Below are positions 37,350 through 59,811 of a DNA stretch of 61,092 bases, piece after piece (position 1 is the first letter of the stretch; every line of letters starts with the position of its first letter). The position numbers were made by a program, and so were the translations under genes. The notes beneath the pieces were generated by a model. That model ran no database searches, was not told the DNA's origin, and was given only the letters and a program-made list of their open reading frames with translations. Source of the DNA: Ruminococcus sp. (GTDB lineage Bacteria; Bacillota; Clostridia; Oscillospirales; Ruminococcaceae); contig JAFRXL010000027.1 in assembly GCA_017441505.1 (NCBI GenBank), positions 1 to 61,092 on the forward strand, given 5' to 3'.

Positions 37350-38261
37350 TCAATCGTAAAGTCCTGTACTGAAATAGCGGTCGCCACGGTCAGGGAATAC
37401 TGTTACAATATTTCCTTTTGCTCCGCTTTCTATGAGTTTAACTACCGCTGCCATAGCAGCTCCGGAAGACGAACCAGCAATTATTCCCTCTGATTTTGCA
37501 AGCAAACGAGCTGTATCGAACGCTTCATTATCATTTATTTTTATAACTCTGTCCACAAGGGACATATCCATAGTTTCAGCTATGAAATCATTTCCGATAC
37601 CCTCTATATTGTAGTCGCTGTGCTCACCTCCGCCCATTGTAGAACCTACCGGATCAGCGAGCACTCCCTTTGCATCCGGAACTCTCTCCTTGATGTAGCG
37701 AAGTATACCTGTGTAAGTTCCGCCGCTTCCTGCACCTGCAACAACGTAGTCTATCTTTCCGTCAAGGGATTCAAATATCTCACGACCTGTAGTCTCATAG
37801 TGAGCAAGCGGATTGCTCTGATTTTTGAACTGCTCAAGTGATATTGAATCCGGTATCTGAGCTTTAAGTTCTTCGGCTTTTGCAACAGCTCCGAGCATTC
37901 CCTTTTCACGGGGAGTGTTTATTACCTCAGCTCCGAGTGCTCTGAGCAATGCCTGCTTTTCAGCTGAAAACTTTGTAGGTACTACAAATATTATACGGTA
38001 TCCACGGTTAAGTGCGGCAAATGCAATTCCAAGACCGGTGTTGCCGGCTGTAGCTTCAACGATAGTACCTCCCTTTTTAAGAAGTCCCTTTTTCTCAGCA
38101 TCGTTAATCATGTAAAGACCAGTTCTGTCCTTAACGCTTCCGGAAGGATTGTAAAACTCCAGTTTTGCAAACACATTTACTCCGCTGTTCTGAACGATAT
38201 TTCCAAGTTTTACTAATGGAGTATTTCCTATAAGAGCCTGCATGGAATCAAAATAATTCAT
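37350..38261 (-). CDS. cysteine synthase / cystathionine beta-synthase (CysK/MccA type)
   Basis: 303-aa PLP enzyme of the OAS sulfhydrylase family. The PLP lysine is in PSGSVKDRTG, the phosphate loop is GSGGTYTG, and the substrate loop reads EATAGNTGLG. TAGNTG rather than TSGNTG is a feature of the MccA/CBS-like branch that takes homocysteine as well as sulfide. Its position 10 bp after a cystathionine lyase homologue and a methyltransferase resembles the Bacillus yrrT-mtnN-mccA-mccB unit for methionine-to-cysteine conversion. Under control of the Cys-codon leader at 40415-40516. Confidence 0.88.
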   Translation of the reverse strand: MNYFDSMQALIGNTPLVKLGNIVQNSGVNVFAKLEFYNPSGSVKDRTGLYMINDAEKKGLLKKGGTIVEATAGNTGLGIAFAALNRGYRIIFVVPTKFSAEKQALLRALGAEVINTPREKGMLGAVAKAEELKAQIPDSISLEQFKNQSNPLAHYETTGREIFESLDGKIDYVVAGAGSGGTYTGILRYIKERVPDAKGVLADPVGSTMGGGEHSDYNIEGIGNDFIAETMDMSLVDRVIKINDNEAFDTARLLAKSEGIIAGSSSGAAMAAVVKLIESGAKGNIVTVFPDRGDRYFSTGLYD

Positions 38262-38271
38262 AGTATTTACC

Positions 38272-39432
38272 TCACTTTATCTCTGCTTTTGCGATAGCCT
38301 GTTCAATGTCTGCAAGAATGTCCTCAATGCTTTCAATGCCGACTGAAAGACGGATAAGTCCGTCAGTGATGCCGACCTTCTTGCGGATGTCAGCAGGAAT
38401 TGAAGCGTGTGTCATTGTTGCTGGGTGGCATACGAGAGACTCAACTCCGCCAAGACTTTCAGCGAGTGAGACAAGCTCAAGGCTCTCAAAAAATACTCTT
38501 ATATCATAATTCTCATGAAGCTCGAATGAGATCATAGAACCGCCGTTTTTTGCCTGTCTGCGGTTTATAGCGTAACCCTGACTGCTTTCAAGTCCCGGAT
38601 AATATACGTTCTTTACTGCCTTGTGAGCTGAAAGGTACTCAGCTGCTTTTTGAGCATTATAAACGTGTCTGTCCATACGGACTGCAAGTGTTTTTATACC
38701 TCTTATAAGCAGGAATGAGTCGAATGGTGCGAGCACTCCGCCTGTTGAGTTCTGGATGAATGCTATCTGCTCCGCAAGCTCCTTTGTGCTGACTACCGCA
38801 AGTCCTGATACAACATCACTGTGACCGCCGAGATATTTTGTTGCACTGTGGACTACTATATCAGCTCCGAGTTCAAGCGGCTTCTGCAAGTATGGAGTCA
38901 TAAAAGTATTGTCCACGATAACAAGAAGTCCGTGCTTGTGAGATACTTCTGCAACTGCCTTTATATCGGTAACAGTCATAAGCGGATTTGCCGGACTTTC
39001 TATAATGACTGCCTTAACATCCTCTGTTATCTGACTTTCATAAACTTCAAGATCAGTTGTGTCTGCAATAGTGTAGTTGATAGCAAAATGGTCAAATACT
39101 TTATTGAGAAGTCTGAATGTACCGCCGTACACATTGCTTGAAATGAGTACTCTGTCGCCGCTGTGGAGCAAGCTGAGTACTGCTGTGAGTGCTGCCATTC
39201 CGGACGCAAATGCAAATCCTGCAACTCCGCCTTCAAGTTCAGCGATAAGTGCTTCAAGAGCTTCTCTTGTCGGATTTCCTGTACGTGAATACTCATATCC
39301 ACGCATTTTACCAAGTCCGTCCTGCTTGTAAGTGGAAGTCTGATAAATAGGAACATTAACTGCTCCTGTACGTTCATCGATGGAGATACCTCCGTGTATA
39401 AGTGCTGTTTCAGTGTTTGTAAATTTACTCAT
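38272..39432 (-). CDS. cystathionine gamma-lyase/synthase family PLP enzyme (MetB/MccB)
   Basis: 386 aa. The Cys/Met-metabolism PLP motif is DIVVHSATKYLGGHSDVVSG with Lys at about 198; GYEYSRTGNPTREALE and NAQKAAEYLS are further family sequences. It may cleave cystathionine to cysteine or make cystathionine from O-acyl-homoserine. The MccA-like neighbour favours gamma-lyase. 10-11 bp gaps on both sides. Confidence 0.9.
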   Translation of the reverse strand: MSKFTNTETALIHGGISIDERTGAVNVPIYQTSTYKQDGLGKMRGYEYSRTGNPTREALEALIAELEGGVAGFAFASGMAALTAVLSLLHSGDRVLISSNVYGGTFRLLNKVFDHFAINYTIADTTDLEVYESQITEDVKAVIIESPANPLMTVTDIKAVAEVSHKHGLLVIVDNTFMTPYLQKPLELGADIVVHSATKYLGGHSDVVSGLAVVSTKELAEQIAFIQNSTGGVLAPFDSFLLIRGIKTLAVRMDRHVYNAQKAAEYLSAHKAVKNVYYPGLESSQGYAINRRQAKNGGSMISFELHENYDIRVFFESLELVSLAESLGGVESLVCHPATMTHASIPADIRKKVGITDGLIRLSVGIESIEDILADIEQAIAKAEIK

Positions 39433-39443
39433 AATAATTCTCC

Positions 39444-40340
39444 TTATTCATAATCATAGCCTGCGGTATAAGTTGCCGAGATCAGGCTCACATTTTCAAA
39501 AGCTTTCATGCCGTCCTGTCTGCCGCTGAAATATTCAGTCTGCACCTTTTCAGGCGGCATATACGTATCTATCTGGAATCCAAGCGAATAGAGTGCCCGT
39601 GAAACTTCATTGTAATCAAATCCGCCTCGCATTACTTCACCGAGAGATTCCGTTATCTCGGCAAGTTTCTGGACCCTTCTTGGAAAATCACCGCTCTTTA
39701 TCGGATAATCAAAAACTACCGCACTTCCAAGTGAAGAAAGTTCCATCATTTGGCGTAGTGTGTCAGTAAACACGTCAAGAGTGAGGTAATAGGAAACTCC
39801 GAGTATACTGAAAAAAGTTTTTTTGCTTGGATCAAAACCTGCTGATATAAGCTTATCACACATTCGCTCACGTTCAAAATCGACTGGGACGAAGTGTATG
39901 TTTTTAGGGATATTCCAGCCAAGCTCGTCAATTCTTTCAAGCTTGTAACGCTGTGTATCAGGATGATCTATCTCAAATACTGTGATATTCTCATTTTCGT
40001 TGCGGAACGAAAAAGTATCCGAACCCGCACCGCATATCACATATTGTATATCACCATACTCCGCAGCAAATTTACGAAGTCTTACCTCATTGAAATGAAT
40101 TCTTGAAAGAGGTATCGAAGCAAAATACTCGTTTATTATCTGCTCTGTATCCTCTTTTGAAAATCTATATATTCCGTCAAAACCGCTGCTTATCAGGTCG
40201 TAGATACTGTCATATTCTTCCTTACCCATGAAATCATAAGCAAGGTAATCATCATAAATTTTCTGACGTGCCTTGTTAGAGTGCCATGCTCTTACAAAAG
40301 CACAGATCTTAGCGGTGACGCTTTCTCTCTCATCTACCAT
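39444..40340 (-). CDS. class I SAM methyltransferase, leucine-carboxyl-methyltransferase-like
   Basis: 298 aa. The SAM-binding core reads YVICGAGSDTFSFR at about 113, then ITVFEIDHPDTQRYK. This order and spacing fit the LCMT/TIGR00027 group. The substrate is unknown. First structural gene of the cysteine operon, preceded by CCGGAGG. Between promoter and ATG lies the Cys leader peptide and its terminator. Bacillus has an unrelated-substrate methyltransferase (YrrT) at the same operon place, so a role in SAM-to-homocysteine flow is reasonable but unproved. Confidence 0.8.
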   Translation of the reverse strand: MVDERESVTAKICAFVRAWHSNKARQKIYDDYLAYDFMGKEEYDSIYDLISSGFDGIYRFSKEDTEQIINEYFASIPLSRIHFNEVRLRKFAAEYGDIQYVICGAGSDTFSFRNENENITVFEIDHPDTQRYKLERIDELGWNIPKNIHFVPVDFERERMCDKLISAGFDPSKKTFFSILGVSYYLTLDVFTDTLRQMMELSSLGSAVVFDYPIKSGDFPRRVQKLAEITESLGEVMRGGFDYNEVSRALYSLGFQIDTYMPPEKVQTEYFSGRQDGMKAFENVSLISATYTAGYDYE

Positions 40341-40352
40341 AAATACCTCCGG

Positions 40353-40387
40353 AAAAATAAAAATGCGGAATGCTCAACACATTCCGC
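40353..40387 (-). terminator. attenuator terminator before the cysteine operon
   Basis: On the minus strand GCGGAATG and CATTCCGC (40365-40372 with 40380-40387) pair over seven bases, followed by ATTTTTATTTTT. It stands after the leader peptide and only 13 bases before the methyltransferase ATG, so it must be passed for the operon to be expressed. Confidence 0.8.
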
Positions 40388-40414
40388 TCTCAGCTAAACA
40401 AACTGTTCCCATAC

Positions 40415-40516
40415 TCATTGACATCGATAAAAAGTGCAGTACTGTTGGGCATGGATATGCGAAATATGTTTATATTCTTTCATATTCATACAACAACATA
40501 TCATGTACTTGAACAT
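40415..40516 (-). CDS. Cys-codon leader peptide of the cysteine operon
   Basis: A 33-codon ORF starting MFKYMICCCMNMKEYK, with three consecutive Cys codons at 7-9 and two more (C27, C32). AAAAAAGGAG lies nine bases before the ATG; a sigma-A promoter lies 50 bases further upstream. A terminator follows 28 bases after its stop codon. Consecutive codons for the end product, placed between promoter and terminator, are the hallmark of ribosome-mediated attenuation. I could not define the antiterminator by eye. Too short for standard gene callers. Confidence 0.72.
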   Translation of the reverse strand: MFKYMICCCMNMKEYKHISHIHAQQYCTFYRCQ

Positions 40517-40569
40517 CTTTAGCACTCCTTTTTTATCGTTTTCATAGTATTCCTATTGGAACAATATGA

Positions 40570-40598
40570 ATTATATCATACTATTCATACTTTGTCAA
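40570..40598 (-). promoter_or_regulatory. promoter of the cysteine operon
   Basis: TTGACA (40593-40598) and TATAAT (40570-40575), minus strand, spacer 17 bp. It lacks the GTCCAAT element of the other sulfur-block promoters. Confidence 0.75.
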
Positions 40599-56918: not shown

Positions 56919-59549
56919 TTACTTTATAGATCCGGCAACGATCTCTTCAGCCTGAGCAAGTGCTTCATCGATCTTAGCAATATCGCCTGCACCAGCCATA
57001 GCACTGTCAGGCTTTCCGCCGCCTTTACCGCCTGTAACAGCTGATACATTTCTGACTATCTGACCTGCATTTGCACCCTTCTTTACAGCTCCCGGTGTAC
57101 ATACGCAGAAGAATGTACCCTTTTCACCAACAGTGCCAGCAAAGAGAGCAACGATGTCCTCGCCCTTGTCCTTTACACTGTCTCCGAGCTTTCTGAGTGC
57201 ATCCGGAGCAGTACCGTCAAGTCTTGCTGCAACGAACTTAACACCGTTTATATCCTTAGCATTATCGAATAATGCTGCTGTCTTTGAATTAGCTATCTGC
57301 TGTGTAAGACTTTCTATCTTCTTGTCCTTATCCTTTGACTCAGCTGCAACTGCTGCACACTTCTCAGGAAGCTCAGTGATATTTGCAAGCTTGAGTGCCT
57401 TTGCTGATCTGATTATAGAATCCTTGAAACCGTTGAGAAGCTCAAGTACACCAAGACCGGTAACAGCCTCGATACGTCTTACTCCGGCAGCTACTGAGCT
57501 TTCGGATACTATCTTGAAAAGACCTATCTGCGAAGTATTTGATATATGAGTACCTCCGCAGAACTCTACTGACTTATCAGCTGTAACAACTCTTACGGTT
57601 GAGCCGTATTTTTCTCCGAACAGAGCCATTGCTCCGAGCTTTCTTGCTTCTTCGATAGGCATTTCCTGCATTGTTACAGGTATCGCACTCATTATCTCAG
57701 CGTTGACTATCTCTTCTACCTTTGCTATTTCTTCATCAGTCATAGCACTGAAGTGGTTGAAGTCGAAACGGCAAGCCTTCTCATTAACGAGCTGTCCAGC
57801 CTGATGAACGTGATCGCCAAGCACCTGACGGAGTGCATACTGAAGAAGGTGAGCTGTTGTATGGTTACGCATAATTGACATTCTGCGGTCTTTTTCAATT
57901 TCAGCGTATACATGGTCACCCTTTGAGATGCTTCCCTGTTCGATAGTAGCGATATGGAGGAAATGTCCCTCTGACTTGATAGTATCGTCAACAGAAGCTA
58001 TGCTTGCATCCTTGATAAGAGCACCTGTATCGCCTACCTGTCCGCCGCTTTCAGCGTAGAATGGAGTTACGTCAAGAACGATAACAACATCATCGCCCTC
58101 AACAGCAGTCTCTATCTCTGCACCGTCTTTATATATAGCAAGTACTTCTGCATCTTTAGCAGCAAAATCAGTATATCCTGTGAATATAGTTGCAGGAGCA
58201 TCTACCTTTATGCTGTTATCAGCCCATGATGAACCAGCCTTTGCAGCGTGGTCAGCTTTAGCTCTTGCTCTCTGTTCTTTAGCGAGTTCAGTAAAGCGGT
58301 CACGGTCAACTTCAAATCCCCTTTCCTCACAGATCTCGACTGTAAGGTCTATCGGGAATCCATATGTATCAGAGAGCTTGAATGCATCGTCACCTGAGAG
58401 TACTTTCTTACCCTCAGCCTTTAAAGCATCAGTGAAACCGTTGAGAAGTTCAGTACCCTTATCGATAGTCTTAGCGAAAGCCTCTTCTTCAACGCCGATT
58501 ATCTTCTTGATGTAGTCACGCTTCTCAGCGAGTTCAGGGTAAGCATCTGCATTCTCGTTGATAACAGTATCGCATACATCACAGAGGAATGGCTTTGTGA
58601 TACCTAAGAGTCTGCCGTGACGAGCTGCTCTTCTGAGGAGTCGGCGAAGAACATATCCTCTGCCCTCATTTGAAGGCATGATGCCGTCGCCGACCATGAA
58701 TGTTGTGCTTCTGATGTGGTCAGTGATAACACGGAGCGAAACGTCCTTCTTAGCGTCCTTTTTATACTCAACACCGGCAATGCGTGAAATGTGCTTCATG
58801 ATATTCTGAACAGTATCGACCTCGAAAATATTGTCAACGCCCTGCATTGCACAAGCAAGTCTTTCGAGTCCCATACCTGTATCGATATTCTTGTTCTTCA
58901 TTTCCTCATAGTGACCGTTTCCGTCACTGTCGAACTGGCTGAAAACGAGGTTCCATATCTCGATAACACGGTCTATCTCACTTGCCTGCTCGAAGTTCTC
59001 GAAAGGACCGTAAGCTTCACCACGGTCAAAATGTATCTCTGAACATGGACCGCATGGACCTGAACCGTGCTCCCAGAAGTTATCCTTCTTGCCAAGACGG
59101 ATTATTCTGTCGTGAGGGATACCGATATGGTTTTCCCAGATCTGTTCAGCCTCGTCGTCGCTTTCAAAAATAGTGATCCAAAGACGCTCAGCAGGTATCT
59201 CAAGAACCTTTGTAAGGAATTCCCAAGCCCACTCGATAGCCTCGGTCTTGAAATAGTCACCGAAAGAGAAGTTACCGAGCATCTCGAAATATGTACCGTG
59301 ACGAGCTGTCTTGCCAACGCTCTCTATATCAGGAGTTCTGATACACTTCTGACAAGTTGTAACTCTCTTGTTAGGAGGTGTAGCCTGTCCGAGGAAGAAT
59401 TTTTTCAGAGGTGCCATACCTGAGTTGATAAGAAGAAGGCTCTTATCCCCCTGAGGTACAAGTGATGCACTTGCCATTCTTGTATGATTTTTGCTTTCAA
59501 AGAAGGAAAGATACTTTTCACGAAGATCGTTAAGTCCTGTCCACTGCAT
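56919..59549 (-). CDS. alaS: alanyl-tRNA synthetase
   Basis: 876 aa, full length. Class II core from MQWTGLNDLREKYLSFFESK, motif 2 region GTYFEMLGNFSFGDYFK and SNEGRGYVLRRLLRRAARHGR. The editing domain has NHTTAHLLQYALR and CGGTHISNTSQIG zinc ligands. The C-terminal DHHA1 domain has GGKGGGKPDSAMAGAG. Preceded by a T-box leader, hence induced by uncharged tRNA-Ala. Confidence 0.97.
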   Translation of the reverse strand: MQWTGLNDLREKYLSFFESKNHTRMASASLVPQGDKSLLLINSGMAPLKKFFLGQATPPNKRVTTCQKCIRTPDIESVGKTARHGTYFEMLGNFSFGDYFKTEAIEWAWEFLTKVLEIPAERLWITIFESDDEAEQIWENHIGIPHDRIIRLGKKDNFWEHGSGPCGPCSEIHFDRGEAYGPFENFEQASEIDRVIEIWNLVFSQFDSDGNGHYEEMKNKNIDTGMGLERLACAMQGVDNIFEVDTVQNIMKHISRIAGVEYKKDAKKDVSLRVITDHIRSTTFMVGDGIMPSNEGRGYVLRRLLRRAARHGRLLGITKPFLCDVCDTVINENADAYPELAEKRDYIKKIIGVEEEAFAKTIDKGTELLNGFTDALKAEGKKVLSGDDAFKLSDTYGFPIDLTVEICEERGFEVDRDRFTELAKEQRARAKADHAAKAGSSWADNSIKVDAPATIFTGYTDFAAKDAEVLAIYKDGAEIETAVEGDDVVIVLDVTPFYAESGGQVGDTGALIKDASIASVDDTIKSEGHFLHIATIEQGSISKGDHVYAEIEKDRRMSIMRNHTTAHLLQYALRQVLGDHVHQAGQLVNEKACRFDFNHFSAMTDEEIAKVEEIVNAEIMSAIPVTMQEMPIEEARKLGAMALFGEKYGSTVRVVTADKSVEFCGGTHISNTSQIGLFKIVSESSVAAGVRRIEAVTGLGVLELLNGFKDSIIRSAKALKLANITELPEKCAAVAAESKDKDKKIESLTQQIANSKTAALFDNAKDINGVKFVAARLDGTAPDALRKLGDSVKDKGEDIVALFAGTVGEKGTFFCVCTPGAVKKGANAGQIVRNVSAVTGGKGGGKPDSAMAGAGDIAKIDEALAQAEEIVAGSIK

Positions 59550-59582: not shown

Positions 59583-59805
59583 CCCAGTACGCAAAAAAAG
59601 CCCCGCCGCCAATGGGACGAAGGCTTTCGTGGTACCACCCAAATTCAAAAGAGCAAAGCTCTTTTCTCATACTCTTTAACGCAGAAATACGCTCCGGTTT
59701 TCCGGAGAGGCTCCGGGTAAGCACCTGTTTTGCACATGAAAACTCGCACCAGCCGCTTTCTCTCTGAAATGTGCTGCTGAACAGTCAGTCCCATCAAAGC
59801 CGTAC
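59583..59805 (-). promoter_or_regulatory. T-box leader of alaS
   Basis: The 13-base T-box GGGTGGTACCACG is at 59628-59640 (minus strand). It is followed by a terminator stem of AAAGCC with GGGGCTTT and seven U (59593-59627). Upstream are Stem I features AGAGAGAAAGCGG and GGTGCGAG. A GCU triplet at 59720-59722 (in GGTGCTTACC) is the likely Ala specifier. Charged tRNA-Ala leads to termination; uncharged tRNA stabilises the antiterminator. Confidence 0.9.
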
Positions 59806-59811
59806 ATTATT

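Follow-up and report, generated by a model that had tools for sequence, protein, structure and literature searches.

A cysteine-codon leader as a predicted ribosome-mediated transcription attenuator of a methionine-to-cysteine operon in Ruminococcus and other Clostridia

The window analysed here, a stretch of 61,092 nucleotides of Ruminococcus sp. DNA taken as a whole, carries on its minus strand a predicted methionine-to-cysteine operon, and the question that it raises is how the operon is controlled. The first gene (39444..40340) encodes an LCM-type SAM-dependent methyltransferase (PF04072, 5.2e-38; TIGR00027 over cut-off; distant PDB relative, 2ckd). It is followed by genes for an MccB-like cystathionine lyase/homocysteine lyase (38272..39432; PF01053, Cys_Met_Meta_PP, 7.5e-153; best NCBIfam model NF005810, with a score under its cut-off) and for an MccA/CysK-like PLP enzyme (37350..38261; PF00291, PALP, 5.4e-74; TIGR01136 and TIGR01139 narrowly under cut-off). 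Upstream, on the same strand, lies a sigma-70-type promoter, TTGACA-17-TATAAT (40598-40570), that has 12 of 12 consensus bases and ranks top among the 23 promoter-like sites in the 8 kb scanned. A Shine-Dalgarno sequence, AAGGAG (40525..40530), precedes a leader open reading frame of 33 codons and a stop (40516-40415), with the predicted translation MFKYMICCCMNMKEYKHISHIHAQQYCTFYRCQ, in which three tandem Cys codons, TGT TGT TGT (40490..40498), are the predicted sensor codons. The intrinsic terminator beyond it consists of a 5' arm, strand B (GCGGAATGTG, 40378..40387), and a 3' arm, strand C (CATTCCGC, 40365..40372), with a U tract at 40364-40353; its stem (40387-40365) has 9 pairs, the most among the eight terminator-like sites that the scan found. 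The sequence ATTTTTATTTTT follows the stem and reaches 40353, and the ATG of the methyltransferase gene, at 40340, comes 12 nt later. A preliminary description of this DNA had listed the promoter, the 33-codon frame with its triple Cys, the terminator and the methyltransferase-mccB-mccA operon, and re-reading of the sequence showed its coordinates and description to be right. When leaders were defined mechanically, as an SD-preceded frame of 10–60 codons with at least three Cys including CC, only one of the 32 long open reading frames of the window had one, namely the methyltransferase gene; the same definition was satisfied by 99 of 4000 random 420-nt stretches, some of which are repeat draws of one place.

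Two features were absent from that description. One is an imperfect palindrome, TTCATATTGTTCC-AATA-GGAATACTATGAA (40541..40570, minus strand; 13-nt arms matching at 11 of 13 positions), which spans the likely start site and is a candidate repressor operator. The other is a candidate antiterminator strand, A (CATATTTCGC, 40459..40468, minus strand), which coincides with leader codons 17–20, begins 21 nt past the last Cys codon, is similar to the terminator's 3' arm and can pair with the 5' arm B in its place. With this strand, the locus has the sequence-level features of a trp/his-type attenuator: promoter, Shine-Dalgarno sequence, leader frame, Cys run, terminator and mutually exclusive antiterminator. 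We consider it very probable that the leader is a cysteine-responsive, ribosome-mediated transcription attenuator of the operon. RNA polymerase would start near 40563 and a ribosome would translate the leader. If charged Cys-tRNA were scarce, the ribosome would stall on the Cys run and leave A clear, A would pair with B as B emerges, B could then not join C, and methyltransferase-mccB-mccA would be transcribed for want of a terminator. If Cys-tRNA were plentiful, the ribosome would pass A and proceed to the stop codon, B:C would form and transcription would end at the U tract. The start site, the translation of the leader, the stalling, the termination and the response to cysteine are what we infer from the arrangement of the parts.

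Conservation of the leader was followed first within the genus, where a search of 100 genomes for the methyltransferase gave 44 matches, 39 of them full-length orthologs, the window's own included; G266, G199 and G260 (split or partial) were left out, as were G211 (37%) and G277 (34%), which were counted among the 13 paralogs considered below. The promoter and leader are present in 38 of the 39, the sole exception being L045, where the gene is preceded by no more than 147 nt of dissimilar sequence, and the promoter has a 17-nt spacer in all 38 orthologous loci scanned for it. Leader and Cys codons are likewise kept in all 15 orthologs found in 13 other genera, so that the lack of conservation among relatives that the preliminary description had named as evidence against its reading was not observed. 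The conserved block, used as a pattern to scan the contigs of named genomes, matched at 53 loci. A leader is present at 37 of them, 29 already known and eight additional, and all eight additional ones precede the methyltransferase gene; the other 16 loci have no leader and are taken to be chance matches, one of them in a Ruminococcus genome. Among named genomes the carriers are strains of R. flavefaciens, which is assigned to the class Clostridia, MAGs named Ruminococcus and two further MAGs whose names are broader. A profile of the leader matches 49 of 125 genus genomes, in one place each except for a partial second match in G199; the match in G247, inside a 460-aa frame, was discounted, and the context was viewed for part of the matches. 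The window leader matches this profile with an E-value of 1.7e-12, although its locus is one of the 40 rows from which the profile is made, and it is the most divergent of the aligned leaders (33% identity to the first row). Used as a query against 197 genomes of the family, the window's peptide finds only itself, and the window leader is therefore atypical; the 40-leader profile gave nine matches in 297 family genomes, of which the eight non-self ones are all partial, several lying in longer open frames or having internal stops, with none leader-like among those inspected.

The frame itself is kept. Measured from the start codon, the conserved 3' block lies at one of six distances in each of the 46 genus leaders, all six being multiples of three, and the 43 measured distances from stop codon to terminator occupy all three frame residues. 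A Cys cluster stands at the same place in all 40 aligned leaders, with variants such as CWYC, WCC, ICC, CFRCC, CCMQCCC and CCCCC, and Cys makes up 20.7% of the residues of the 46 leaders versus 0.9% in nine genes of the window. Both Cys codons are used (TGT 231 times, TGC 69 times). A terminator was found by script in 44 of the 46 loci, and those of L024 and L044 are visible in the alignment.

The preliminary description had proposed RNA folding as a check for an antiterminator, and folding does point to one, in that A (40468-40459) pairs with the terminator 5' arm and the pairing shows compensatory changes. In the window the A:B duplex has a predicted energy of -16.2 kcal/mol versus -15.5 for B:C, and none of 200 shuffles was as good. 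Across 32 aligned loci, from which six with an additional hairpin (L020, L027, L041, L043, L047, L048) were excluded, 98.1% of the cells of the A:B helix are paired and 6 of its 10 pairs have a two-sided change in one or more sequences; the corresponding values for the B:C terminator helix are 96.0% and 7 of 11 pairs. Such two-sided changes are few: the antiterminator fold has 11 in 768 cells, where shuffled alignments average 4.4, and the full fold 15 in 1363, where they average 5.5; further pair types exceed those of shuffled alignments in the antiterminator fold (2 of 500 reach the observed value) and do not in the full fold (239 of 500 reach it). Sliding the partners by 1–3 columns lowers pairing from 94.4% to 22.6–53.3%. 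The mean A:B energy is -17.3 kcal/mol; it is -10.3 when A is shuffled and -15.8 when A is taken from other species, and a locus's own A does better than the swapped one at only 21 of the 32 loci (Wilcoxon p 0.007). A:B passes the limit of 10 in 200 shuffles at only 22 of 44 genus loci. The gap between the last Cys codon and A is 21 nt in all 32 aligned loci. When B was left free to choose its best partner in the part of the frame after the run, that partner starts at position 20–23 in 38 of 44 loci, the two without a script-found terminator having been excluded. The component parts and how they are conserved, the two mutually exclusive pairings and the constant spacing are in this way features of the sequences themselves, and leader conservation together with the compensatory changes in the antiterminator argues for the ribosome-mediated Cys attenuator that the preliminary description had suggested.

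Partition functions calculated for the 32 loci are consistent with a switch that depends on when the strands become available. With a ribosome placed on the Cys run and the RNA extending up to B, the mean probability of A:B is 0.80, versus 0.41 without a ribosome; a ribosome at the stop codon gives 0.40, no lower than the ribosome-free value. For the full-length RNA the terminator reaches a mean of 0.86 without a ribosome (A:B 0.09) and 0.91 with a ribosome at the stop codon. Even with the ribosome stalled, the full-length RNA at equilibrium still favours the terminator (0.74 versus 0.22 for A:B), and the predicted switch must therefore be kinetic, with A:B forming first. Against the model, in the window itself a ribosome placed at the stop codon leaves the antiterminator ahead (A:B 0.63 versus 0.18). 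The genus consensus suggests, in addition, a hairpin inside the antiterminator, which was rejected as a part of the window locus, where its computed probability is only 0.03.

Orthologs outside the genus were sought by protein searches of 297 genomes of the family, 394 of the order and 391 of the class with cut-offs of 1e-30, 1e-55 and 1e-55, of which the order and class cut-off would miss weaker orthologs. They gave 15 orthologs with 50–73% identity in 13 genera and 8 families (that of L215 a partial match, residues 1–233), together with 11 matches at 31–40%; the boundary between orthologs (at least 50%) and paralogs (at most 40%) was set after the matches had been seen. Before each of the 15 orthologs stand a Shine-Dalgarno sequence, a short frame that contains a Cys run and, after it, a terminator-like hairpin, the U tract being weak in L201 and L215. 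The leaders range from 15 to 53 codons (examples are peptides with the stretches MKSCRRICCCIMNKSDHH, MMRFVICPCCCCRNNW and AENCCCCPCCIDTGG, and the peptides MMCACCFYLYNRINR and MKNINKSRQMNNCFCCCILCVRIGDTVCL) and, save for close pairs within one genus, differ from one another except in the Cys run, which is as expected if the codons are under selection. None of the 13 paralogs at 40% identity or less (the 11 from outside, L049 and L050) has a Cys leader, and these precede other kinds of operon. The neighbours of the orthologs, identified by eye with five fragments confirmed by Pfam, include MccB-like, LuxS, MetK, CysK-like and ssu transporter genes and would fit a methionine-to-cysteine pathway; in L213, L214, L215, L217 and L218 the leader sits between a CysK-like gene and the methyltransferase. 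With terminator arms chosen by eye, and L196 and L197 being near-duplicates, A:B is stronger than in dinucleotide shuffles (p <= 0.05) at 9 of the 15 loci (Fisher p 5e-7); it fails at the other six, with nothing in L195, L198 and L214 and values short of significance in L200, L217 and L219. From the first Cys of the run to the start of A the distance is 23–29 nt in eight loci for which it was worked out, and 40 nt in L199 and L200.

Control of the operon could instead lie mainly with a repressor, CymR or another Rrf2 protein, bound at the start-site palindrome, the leader setting only a basal level. Of 38 loci, 34 have the palindrome core TTCC-N4-GGAA at the start site, and an Rrf2 gene scores over cut-off in each of the three genomes searched. 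We take the palindrome to resemble CymR sites. The Bacillus yrrT-mtnN-mccAB operon is described as being under CymR control (PMC3519770). The Cys-run leader, however, is kept in distant families in which, save for a partial one in L195, no palindrome was seen by eye, and with up to three mismatches the motif is no commoner than its reversed control in four genomes. We regard predominant control by a repressor as unlikely; the two controls are not mutually exclusive, and a DNA-binding repressor probably adds a second one at the start site. Formation of an RNA hairpin by the same palindrome was considered and rejected, as its changes lack compensation: in four of five pairs every departure is an unpaired cell. 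Most genus loci also carry CTATAACTATTGCCGAATATAG upstream of the -35 box (alignment columns 9–30, by eye), a sequence that we take to resemble a LysR-type site.

It is less likely still that the leader senses methionine, or the sulfur amino acids jointly, rather than cysteine alone. The operon consumes Met, and non-initial Met accounts for 11.6% of residues in the 46 genus leaders versus 1.7% in nine window genes; against this, it is the Cys run that is constant across families, and the leaders of L199, L215 and L220 have at most one Met beyond the start.

The strong conservation, codons included, of the C-terminal (Y/C)AQRCC in genus leaders would suit a small Cys-rich protein with a function of its own, or an arrest peptide acting through its amino-acid sequence. 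For the L213 leader NCBIfam also gives a weak hit, far below cut-off (17.2 of 35 bits, E 0.0035), to the streptolysin S family; it is the best of the few sub-threshold NCBIfam and Pfam matches among outside leaders, and the Cys run of L213 may account for it. The dissimilar peptides and widely varying lengths outside the genus count against such a function, as do the covarying terminator and antiterminator and the lack of any Pfam or NCBIfam match over cut-off for the 40 genus leaders and 10 of 14 distinct outside leaders, and we consider it very unlikely. The block that encodes YAQRCC, TATGCTCAGCGATGTTGC, at the 3' end of the leader frame (as in L011, 2469-2558), is conserved at the nucleotide level and can pair with the leader's own Shine-Dalgarno region; this pairing hardly varies, and is thus neither supported nor refuted by covariation. 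The block is absent from leaders outside the genus, beyond the RRC or RCC endings of L195 and L196.

Control by a T-box or another known riboswitch, as might be supposed from the Cys T-boxes that precede Clostridium ubiG-mccBA (PMC2940859) and from the T-box elsewhere in the window, is improbable in the extreme, as there is no RF00230 covariance-model match at the leader, no Rfam 15 family at threshold there or, in 13 of the 15 outside loci, at any position, and, with E up to 1 in eight genus loci, two weak matches only, both outside the leader. In the loci and peptides scanned, Rfam, Pfam and NCBIfam gave nothing over cut-off at the leader. The T-box of the window (RF00230, 96.6 bits; 59610-59806, minus strand) precedes a gene at 56919-59549 that by eye looks like an alanyl-tRNA synthetase gene; T-boxes therefore occur in this organism.

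The kind of mechanism proposed here is already known elsewhere, and what would be new is a Cys leader-peptide attenuator in Firmicutes, in the class Clostridia. The claim of novelty in the preliminary description stands to that extent, as our literature search, with most subscription papers outside its reach, found no Cys leader-peptide attenuator in Firmicutes. It does not extend to Cys leaders as such, which are predicted for Rhodobacterales (PMC8632094) and Actinobacteria (PMC1262725), nor to leader-peptide attenuation in Firmicutes, which is reported for other amino acids (PMC9413887, PMC5864092). The uORFC-8-2 motif upstream of cysS (PMC8632094) shares a short frame, tandem Cys codons, an intrinsic terminator and proposed stalling on the Cys codons; it belongs to Alphaproteobacteria and a cysteinyl-tRNA synthetase gene, whereas here the carriers are Clostridia and the first gene of the biosynthetic operon encodes an LCM methyltransferase, which places our leader outside that motif. 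The actinobacterial predictions (PMC1262725) are runs of Cys codons in short frames before the cys operons of Mycobacterium and P. acnes and before B. longum cbs, with the run near the stop codon and, in Mycobacterium, no conserved terminator hairpin reported. Unlike the Mycobacterium leaders, the present ones have a terminator and an antiterminator that are conserved within the genus. Experiments on mycobacterial Cys leaders have reportedly been carried out (Canestrari, 2020).

In Firmicutes, the literature describes predicted His leader attenuators (PMC9413887) and Rli60 of Listeria ilv-leu, a branched-chain leader-peptide attenuator whose operon is also under a repressor, CodY, a likeness to the dual control considered above (PMC5864092); both share ribosome-mediated attenuation with the present case and differ in amino acid and operon. 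The Clostridium ubiG-mccB-mccA(-luxS) operon, which is of the same kind, has a Cys T-box, said not to be fully functional in C. acetobutylicum, with the charging of tRNA-Cys as signal and premature termination as output, as proposed here; there the RNA binds uncharged tRNA, whereas the proposed reader of the charging state in the present leader is a translating ribosome (PMC2940859). If the attenuator reading is right, several families of Clostridia sense cysteine for this operon through the translating ribosome, and the ribosome here and the T-box in Clostridium proper are two unrelated sensors of one signal acting at one control point; the element could also help to predict cysteine-regulated genes. 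The S. lividans metL leader, which ends RCMCRRMCAF and is filed as Met-dependent in PMC8079986, is Cys-rich and resembles the RCC endings of the present leaders; it is possibly a Cys leader.

A second leader frame, translated as MNNYRYITNSERMRCC, lies upstream of ssuA in the window (43689-43639, minus strand) behind a promoter, TGGACA-17-TATGAT; in the window the terminator scan found none between it and ssuA. A pattern allowing up to one mismatch matches at 16 sites, distributed over 15 of the 125 genus genomes. The methyltransferase neighbourhood was also read at 14 more loci, 13 of which belong to genomes that the pattern had missed; 13 of the 14 have ssu genes there, and SERMRC is kept in 11 of those 13 (in L238 with a TTG start). 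In L232 and L235 the second CGA is TGA, so that the peptide ends SERM with no Cys, and elsewhere the Cys is followed by C, R, W or L. Both Arg codons of SERMRC are CGA in 27 of 29 ssuA loci, 16 of which were found with a CGN-holding pattern, and in 45 of the 46 methyltransferase leaders the codon before the C-terminal Cys is CGA, 8 of the 46 loci having been found with a CGA-holding pattern; among 12 window genes CGA accounts for 7 of 196 Arg codons. These regularities raise the idea of a second signal in the R. flavefaciens clade, Arg-Cys with the rare CGA codon, at which slow decoding or nascent-chain arrest would report cysteine to a two-leader regulon. We hold this idea to be unlikely, given the two loci that end SERM without Cys and the patterns by which some of the loci were found. 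Since the window shows no terminator for the ssuA leader, and no more than one of its Cys residues is constant, its mechanism would have to be other than classical attenuation if the idea were true. The ssuA leader makes the role of the conserved Arg-Cys ending of a leader peptide directly testable. In many ssuA promoters another palindrome, CCTATAGG, was seen by eye in the spacer.
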